Source of the DNA: Hyphococcus sp.
Lineage (GTDB): Bacteria > Pseudomonadota > Alphaproteobacteria > Caulobacterales > Parvularculaceae
Direction: 5' to 3'
NCBI GenBank assembly: GCA_021776345.1
Contig: JAJFGC010000286.1
Span: 1-51,908, forward strand
Length of the DNA stretch: 51,908 bases
Made by a program: the position numbers and the translations under genes. The notes under the pieces are model-generated. The model did no database searches. It saw nothing but the letters and a program-made list of their open reading frames with translations, and was not told the DNA's origin. Of the stretch, positions 17,066-19,407 are shown one piece after another; position 1 is the stretch's first letter, and every line of letters starts with the position of its first letter.

Positions 17066-17482
17066 TCAGCCTCCCCTTCGGACATAATATCATTATCTAT
17101 ATTTATGACCTTCAACATTTTACAGTCATGTTAATAATCTGATTCAAAATTTATCACGTAGCAACTGTATCGGCGGAACAGCAAACATAGGGCGTATTAG
17201 CGCGTGCACGGACCCGCCATTCTGGACCCCGGCTTTCGCCGGGGAGATCGGGTTGAGGAGCAGGCGGAAATCCATCCTCCCGTTCTTTCCGGCGCCCTTC
17301 GAGACGCCGCCTGACGGCGTCGATAGGGCCCCCACCCCCAATCGACCCTCAGGATGATGAGCCGGAATCCGGAGATGTGTGATGTCTTATGATATTTGGG
17401 GCGTTGGATTGGGACTCCAGCAAAATCAACCGCAGCCCTGGATTGCCGGAACAAGTCCGGCAATGACAGATAGAAAGCAACT

Positions 17483-17513: not shown

Positions 17514-17549
17514 CTGGTCCAAACTCTATTACCTTTTCCCACCGAGAGA

Positions 17550-17671
17550 GCCCCCTCCGTCGCCGTTGGCGACACTTCCCCCGCAAGCGGGGGAGGAATT
17601 GATCGAGGTTGCAGCATGCTCCTCCTTCCCCCGTTTACGGGGGAAGTGTCAGTGAAGCTGACGAAGGGGGC
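17550..17671. repeat. Composite inverted-repeat element GCCCCCTCCGTC...GACGAAGGGGGC
   Basis: Near-complementary termini (17550-17561 and 17660-17671) and two internal hairpins, CCCCCGCAAGCGGGGG and CCCCCGTTTACGGGGG. Confidence 0.8.
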
Positions 17672-18048
17672 TATTGCTGTGACGCTTCGACCTGCTTTGC
17701 CCTCACCGAGTTCAATGCAGCATCAAGAATGACTTCGAGCACGCTGTTGATCTCATCATAGACTTCATTGTTCCAAAACCGCAAAACTTCGAAACCTTGT
17801 TCCCTTAAATAAGCGTCACGGTTCGCATCTCTTTCCGGCGCATCACCGAGAGCATGCTGATCGCCGTCAAGTTCAATAACTAGCTTTGCTTCAAGACAGG
17901 CGAAGTCAACGATGTAAGGCCCTATTGTATGCTGCCGGCGAAAGCGAAAGCCGCCGAGCGCTTTACGGCGGATGAAATACCACAGACGTTGTTCCGCTGG
18001 CGGCATGGATTTGCGTAGCTTGCGCGCAATGGGATGAGGTTTTCTCAG
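17671..18048 (-). CDS. DUF559 domain protein (Vsr/REase-like endonuclease fold)
   Basis: HPIARKLRKSMPPAEQRLWYFIRRKALGGFRFRRQHTIGPYIVDFACLEAKLVIELDGDQHA...GFEVLRFWNNEV. The ATG at 18006 lies inside the conserved N-terminus. The frame stays open upstream with no ATG; the real start is uncertain (CTG at 18048 is one possibility). Confidence 0.85.
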   Translation of the reverse strand: MRKPHPIARKLRKSMPPAEQRLWYFIRRKALGGFRFRRQHTIGPYIVDFACLEAKLVIELDGDQHALGDAPERDANRDAYLREQGFEVLRFWNNEVYDEINSVLEVILDAALNSVRAKQVEASQQ

Positions 18049-18060
18049 TGCGGGAGTGTA

Positions 18061-18110
18061 GCCCCCACCGGCGCCTACGGCGACACCTCCCCCGTAAACG
18101 GGGGAGGAAA
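18061..18110. repeat. Half-copy of the same repeat (GCCCCCACCGGCGCCTACGGCGACACCTCCCCCGTAAACGGGGGAGG)
   Basis: Same orientation and hairpin core as 17550-17598. Confidence 0.75.
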
Positions 18111-19319: not shown

Positions 19320-19407
19320 CGCCCCCTCCGGCCCTGCGGGCCGTCAAAGCCGTGCTTTTGAGCCCCGCTAGCGGGGGGAGTGTCAGCCAAGCTGACGAAG
19401 GGGGCCG
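19320..19407. repeat. Further composite copy of the GCCCCCT...AGGGGGC repeat
   Basis: GCCCCCTCCGGCCC...GAGCCCCGCTAGCGGGGGGAGTGTCAGCCAAGCTGACGAAGGGGGCC. Confidence 0.75.

Follow-up and report, generated by a model that had tools for sequence, protein, structure and literature searches.

The window analysed here, a stretch of 51,908 nucleotides from a Hyphococcus sp. assembly (GCA_021776345.1, contig JAJFGC010000286.1), contains a gene for a DUF559 nuclease bracketed by related palindromic repeats, and raises the question of whether the nuclease and the repeats belong together as one unit and, if so, what kind of unit it is. A sequence-only reading had proposed a repeat-associated endonuclease unit, a nuclease analogue of a RAYT/REPIN system. 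The features concerned are the following.

17550 to 17671, no strand assigned: composite repeat of about 120 bp, with terminal pyrimidine/purine blocks and two C5G-N4-CG5 hairpins
17578 to 17593 and 17628 to 17643: the two hairpins of the composite, with about 30 nt between them
17660 to 17673, no strand assigned: gene-facing terminus GACGAAGGGGGCTA 3′ of the DUF559 gene, overlapping the stop codon
17671 to 18006, minus strand: DUF559 (PF04480) nuclease gene, 111 amino acids from the first ATG (profile E = 9e-40)
18060 to 18109, no strand assigned: half copy of the repeat, with a hairpin at 18089 to 18104, in inverted orientation to the end of the downstream composite that faces the gene
19320 to 19407, no strand assigned: gene-less repeat copy, partly decayed, with a variant hairpin at 19362 to 19377 (83% identity)

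The layout first read from the letters is confirmed. The composite is built as had been described (GCCCCCTCCGTC ... CCCCCGCAAGCGGGGG ... CCCCCGTTTACGGGGG ... GACGAAGGGGGC), and it ends on base 17671, with which the minus-strand stop codon (CTA/TAG, 17671–17673) begins. The half copy reported upstream of the gene is indeed present, is placed at 18060–18109 and is 84% identical to 17549–17598, and the DUF559 frame does run open through it, as an open frame of 149 amino acids with zero stops. The further copy without a gene exists as well, 1.3 kb from the DUF559 gene, with its left part altered. The purine/pyrimidine block of the half copy faces the gene, and the gene-facing ends of both repeats form a 47-nt inverted repeat (GGGGGCTA ... 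TAGCCCCC) whose arms are 79% complementary. As a single strand, the composite folds well above chance (z = -7.6 and -8.2 against shuffled sequences). Palindromes of another repeat family, of the ATTGCCGGACTTGTTCCGGCAAT type and CTGGACCCCGGCTTTCGCCGGGGAG, lie at 17440–17465 and 17220–17245 in the same intergenic region.

The window protein scores 135 bits against the PF04480 profile (curated cut-off, 20.6) and is a sequence relative of a Neisseria protein of solved structure (PDB 3hrl; E = 1.7e-23). Homology reaches to about 18060, beyond the first ATG. At 18046–18048 on the minus strand the window has CTG (...GCACTGAGAAAACC) where the close homologues L044 and L045 start with ATG (...GTATGAGAAAACC), and with a start at the next ATG, at 18006, 14 residues ahead of the first conserved glutamate are lost; the window copy may therefore be weakly expressed or in incipient decay. 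The source genome (G000), a MAG of 3.64 Mb with Marinicaulis MAGs as its closest named relatives, carries a single DUF559 gene and seven perfect CCCCCGNNNNCGGGGG hairpins (CCCCCG-N4-CGGGGG), three of them beside that gene; these counts come from pattern searches of a fragmented MAG in which some repeats lie at contig ends, so that the copy number is a lower bound. The other repeat copies in G000 are built to the same plan, and one composite (L008) includes a GTCATCCCGGACCTGATCCGGGATGAC hairpin. No match to PF01797, the Y1/RAYT transposase family, occurs in this genome, which rules out a RAYT as the driver there.

C-rich hairpins could be common intergenic terminators of GC-rich genomes, short GC-rich hairpins being frequent near gene ends in general, and the arrangement in the window would then be coincidental. 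This was examined in a first sample of 80 DUF559 loci, all in named genomes, from alpha-, beta- and gammaproteobacteria, Nitrospirales, Binatia and other groups. Perfect hairpins (stem ≥ 9) have a density of 3.8 per kb within 150 bp of the gene against 0.10–0.26 per kb beyond 500 bp, and CCCC...GGGG hairpins one of 2.1 per kb near the gene, falling to 0.003–0.08 per kb far off. Of the 80 DUF559 genes, 60 have a C-rich hairpin no farther than 150 bp away; of the 757 other ORFs in these loci, 32 do. In a second sample of 399 genomes spread evenly over the Pseudomonadota, 109 genomes, about a quarter, have DUF559; at 88 loci from this sample, mostly one per genome and taken from the strong-scoring DUF559 matches listed, a hairpin with a pyrimidine arm is found within 150 bp of the gene in 81 and within 350 bp in 83, and the hairpin density is 5.6 per kb within 150 bp against 0.03–0.2 per kb beyond 500 bp. 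Because these 88 were strong matches, 20 low-scoring DUF559 genes were added, and 18 of them have a hairpin within 350 bp (background, one hairpin in 35 kb). The flanking hairpins often stand on both sides of the gene in inverted register. In smaller genomes (L219, L262, L267 and L293), DUF559 is flanked by AT-richer hairpins (CCCCTCTTTGCTAAAGAGGGG and TCCCCCTTTGCAAAAGGGGGA), which indicates that the motif is the pyrimidine arm, not G+C richness as such. The coincidental reading is refuted by these controls, namely the 19-fold excess at DUF559 compared with the remaining ORFs of these loci, the steep drop of hairpin density with distance and the AT-richer flanking hairpins such as CCCCTCTTTGCTAAAGAGGGG, and we give it practically no weight. 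The association is general, not specific to the window, and the expectation that DUF559 genes lie among such repeats above chance was strongly borne out in several independent samples.

Many of the flanking repeats appear from their sequence to be PIT/TM motifs, which had not been recognized in the sequence-only reading. A PIT/TM motif consists of a hairpin and a mirror block that can form an intrastrand triplex (Holder et al. 2015, PMC4666352); such repeats occur in more than 260 bacterial genomes, with 23 copies in E. coli K-12, and are tied to genome rearrangement, and triplex formation by TM-ECO in vitro has been reported (PMC4666352). The authors report no mobility genes near the motifs, and DUF559 goes unmentioned (PMC4666352). 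Of 264 hairpins at DUF559 loci, 164 have the block that mirrors the arm toward the gene and 63 have it on the outer side, and a mirror match of at least 7/8 on the gene side is seen for 62% of hairpins against 7% after shuffling. The DUF559 units and PIT/TM have in common the CCCTCACCCTAACCCTCTCCC-type motif, inverted pairs and unstable loci; the window differs in that a small extra hairpin sets the block off, standing between the hairpin and the third strand. The DUF559 gene of E. coli K-12, reached through the K-12 annotation, is ycjD, and the exact CCCTCACCCTAACCCTCTCCC motif is present in the adjoining intergenic region; an Enterobacter DUF559 query gave no DNA-level match in E. coli. Of 5,426 complete E. 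coli genomes, about 3,400 have this gene, which in K-12 lies in the sapF-fabI region (L307). In the strains without ycjD that were read, an efflux-gene island occupies the same place, an alternative island and no clean vacancy.

The type of hairpin follows the clade of the nuclease. A DUF559 tree of 155 loci with 17 hairpin types calls for 58 changes of type, and none of 200 shuffles came below 107. For the 22 loci of the window's own family, with five types, four changes suffice, which is the minimum possible (shuffled minimum, seven in 1000), so that in one bacterial family each of several DUF559 clades has its own hairpin (CCTCCCCCG, that of the window, ACCTCCCC... and ACCTCTCCCC...). Members from Nitrospirota and Binatota have in common both a DUF559 clade and a hairpin, ACTCCCCCCTTGAGGGGGAGT. 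The same relation is seen between genomes. The hairpin CCCTCTCCC (CCCTCTCCCN3-6GGGAGAGGG) is present in 78 of 109 genomes with DUF559 and in 29 of 290 without (odds ratio 22.6, p = 4e-33); in genera holding both states the counts are 19 of 29 with and 12 of 74 without (12.0 of 29 expected; p = 1e-5), and the window's hairpin type is present in 34 of 41 relatives with DUF559 and in 5 of 18 without. With flanking and this covariation of hairpin type and subclade, there is good support for describing the arrangement as a repeat-associated endonuclease unit and a nuclease analogue of RAYT/REPIN.

The reading that we consider probable is that the DUF559 gene and its palindromes make up a full-length mobile element, in which the cognate nuclease spreads its own repeats, the solo copies being moved in trans. 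If instead the repeats spread by replication slippage or through another transposase, DUF559 would be cargo, or would preferentially land and survive beside them. The TM sites are known hot spots of rearrangement (PMC4666352), transposition is deduced here rather than observed, and some genomes have the repeats without DUF559. Abundant repeats in genomes lacking DUF559, which had been named beforehand as a finding that would refute the original proposal, are found only as exceptions (e.g. G021, G006, G375 and G221). The complete genomes G375, G137 and G021 have 128, 57 and 11 repeats, respectively, with DUF559 undetected. Four genomes, G375, G241, G221 and G137, have 57–128 CCCTCTCCC hairpins and no DUF559 at E <= 1e-15, and two of these are incomplete MAGs; the four are candidates for recent gene loss or for another driver. 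Repeat-rich genomes of this kind could hold relics of a lost gene or be incomplete MAGs, whereas the complete ones require gene loss or help in trans, which is a point against the element. The passive role for DUF559 nevertheless leaves unexplained why hairpins flank about 90% of DUF559 genes, in many cases at both ends and in inverted register, while other genes lack them (32/757), and why hairpin type and nuclease clade match inside one family; in G000, moreover, there is no Y1 transposase to do the work. We regard such a role as unlikely.

The complete unit in the Marinicaulis relatives is composite-gene-composite with the composites in direct orientation, in comparison with which the upstream copy of the window is truncated. 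In the genus of G047, solo composites have a clear 120-bp consensus and number roughly 10 to 20 copies (two genomes read). The sequence-only reading had called for empty sites, and orthologous sites of solo copies are indeed vacant in sister species, although a perfectly matched one was not obtained. At nine solo sites of this genus, the site in the sister species is vacant or holds a different repeat family, and no target-site duplication was found at these nine or at the other insertions compared. On the uvrB side, synteny in 15 relatives gave repeat-free sites too diverged for alignment, and no clean empty site. L213 and L217, which are orthologous to L172, are without the DUF559-type repeat, and the site holds GTCCTTCGACAGGCTCAGGATGA / TCATCCTGAGCTTGTCGAAGGA; judging from such sites, it is as if repeat families replaced one another at the same intergenic positions.

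One locus in the genus of G047 is found in several states, with gene and repeats in G047 and G043, a solo composite in G059, a solo remnant in G061 and nothing in G069. The left gene is common to G043 and G061, which also have in common one repeat remnant, and this indicates that the gene in G043 sits at the end of an older solo copy. Solo copies could also arise by gene loss through recombination between the direct repeats. In pairs of Mesorhizobium loci, the unit can be the only DNA in common within 2.5 kb, beginning at or near the flanking hairpin.

Conserved genes, too, contain the unit as a discrete in-frame insertion, which the earlier proposal had not noted. Within hsdS of Nitrospirota and Binatota, the frame runs open through it (710–790 amino acids), and plasmid HsdS homologues are without the insert. 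The asnB, hsdM, hsdR and hsdS ORFs with DUF559 units in frame (L324, L325, L334 and L062) are open over hundreds of codons, and in the asparagine synthase (asnB), HsdM and HsdR ORFs the Pfam matches are split around DUF559 or resume on both sides of it. Type I restriction genes recur among the hosts of such in-frame units. In one genome, this hsdS site carries both ends of the unit, but between them 43 bp stand where the gene would be. Of the indications that forms with and without the gene belong to one element, this gene-less copy is the clearest. A single event that spread with the restriction-modification genes may account for the hsdS insertion.

The enzyme is predicted to have a PD-(D/E)XK nuclease fold of the Vsr/homing type. 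The AlphaFold model of DUF559 (pLDDT 87), built on an alignment from which the annotated E. coli row and 21 others were left out, resembles most closely 3hrl, then the catalytic domain of I-Bth0305I (PDB 3r3p; E = 3e-5, TMt 0.82) and then Vsr (PDB 1cw0 and 1vsr; TM 0.43–0.51). Across 57 aligned sequences, YcjD among them, E23, Q43, E63, D65, H69, D78 and R94 do not vary, and conservation of D52 is 90% or more; the window protein has the candidate active-site residues E23, D52, E63, D65, H69 and D78. A defence role was considered and rejected, the matches to PADLOC DpdF and PHROG HNH being only weak. In Caulobacter, lack of a cytosine methyltransferase brings on a DNA-damage response that depends on the DUF559 protein VsrA (PMC12907096), as would suit an enzyme that cuts DNA; this link of a Vsr-type homologue to methylation-related damage also counts against the mobile element.

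The predicted similarity to Vsr, the functional tie of VsrA to a cytosine methyltransferase (PMC12907096) and the position of the repeats within 150 bp of the gene would also suit a structure- or mismatch-specific, Vsr-like nuclease that acts on hairpins or triplexes in repair or maintenance; the flanking copies would regulate their own gene, as terminator, attenuator or in autoregulation, and movement would be a by-product. The window gene shares the broad fold of Vsr but stands in a repeat unit, not next to a methyltransferase, and regulation does not account for gene-less sites, for the matching of hairpins to clades or for in-frame insertion of whole units; we therefore think this account improbable. 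Transposition of the RAYT kind, in which DUF559 would work on the hairpins in single-stranded form, on the lagging strand, with excision and insertion free of double-strand breaks in place of homing-like repair of a break, agrees with the paired inverted hairpins, which are REP-like, with their strong single-strand folding and with insertion sites lacking visible duplication. The modeled fold is, however, of the homing/Vsr type rather than HUH, and the invariant columns of the 57 sequences contain no catalytic-tyrosine signature, so that such a route is very unlikely for this enzyme.

For the mobile element, the ends would be the pyrimidine-arm hairpins, often with a mirror-symmetric "third strand" block toward the gene, and DUF559 would recognize the ends of its own subfamily. 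Solo composites would be gene-less derivatives, moved in trans much as RAYTs move REPINs. As mechanism, break-and-copy is the likeliest: DUF559 would nick or cut a cognate hairpin or target, or the DNA close by, and repair with a donor copy as template would then bring in the unit or a solo repeat. We infer the binding, the cleavage, the mobilization in trans and the copying from the comparisons above; the more general suggestion, made from the letters, that DUF559 may process, mobilise or stabilise the repeats is of the same conditional kind.

With REP/RAYT (TnpA-REP, "REPtrons"; PMC3733652, PMC8266576, PMC8049555) the unit shares a single gene between palindromic repeats, gene-less doublets across the genome and a repeat type tied to the enzyme lineage, and its repeats, like those of a REPtron, stand both at the gene and elsewhere without it. 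In contrast, the enzyme is a Vsr-like nuclease of the PD-(D/E)XK type where REPtrons have an HUH Y1 transposase, the ends often carry a triplex third strand, and insertion is found in frame inside genes too. No GTAG tag was seen at the feet of the hairpins by inspection of the window and its relatives, and by enzyme class and tag the unit is not a RAYT. Its catalytic domain has a fold in common with that of I-Bth0305I, a nuclease whose gene is itself mobile; DUF559, unlike I-Bth0305I, stands alone with palindromic ends, outside any intron or intein and with no known lone target site, and homing-like copying is seen as comparative traces only (G043 versus G061, and the hsdS site). Palindromes of a further kind, the CGTC-tagged REPs, are said to have no dedicated transposase (PMC3733652); some G000 copies have CCGTC, one of them containing a GTCATCCCGG... 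hairpin, but the core hairpins and the consensus of the G047 genus are without the CGTC tag. The unit has sequence features in common with PIT/TM and a fold in common with a homing endonuclease, though not every defining feature of either, and most likely works like RAYT/REPIN with an unrelated enzyme.

No earlier report of a link between DUF559 and these repeats was found in the open-access literature, subscription papers lying outside the search. DUF559 is a protein of unknown function and PIT/TM repeats were published without a mobilizer, and the link gives each of them a testable function. It also explains repeat-encoded peptides (e.g. ...PSPPTPLPAGEG...) within annotated proteins. We propose tentatively, at a little under an even chance, that these units are a bacterial transposable element of a class not recognized before, a lone single-domain Vsr/homing-type PD-(D/E)XK nuclease with cognate palindromic ends that can form triplexes; that it spreads itself and its gene-less derivatives in Pseudomonadota, Nitrospirota, Binatota and probably other phyla and goes in frame into genes; and that PIT/TM repeats originate from it. 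If true, DUF559 would be the missing enzyme for a long-known class of orphan repeats, and a second, unrelated enzyme solution to the REP/RAYT way of life.
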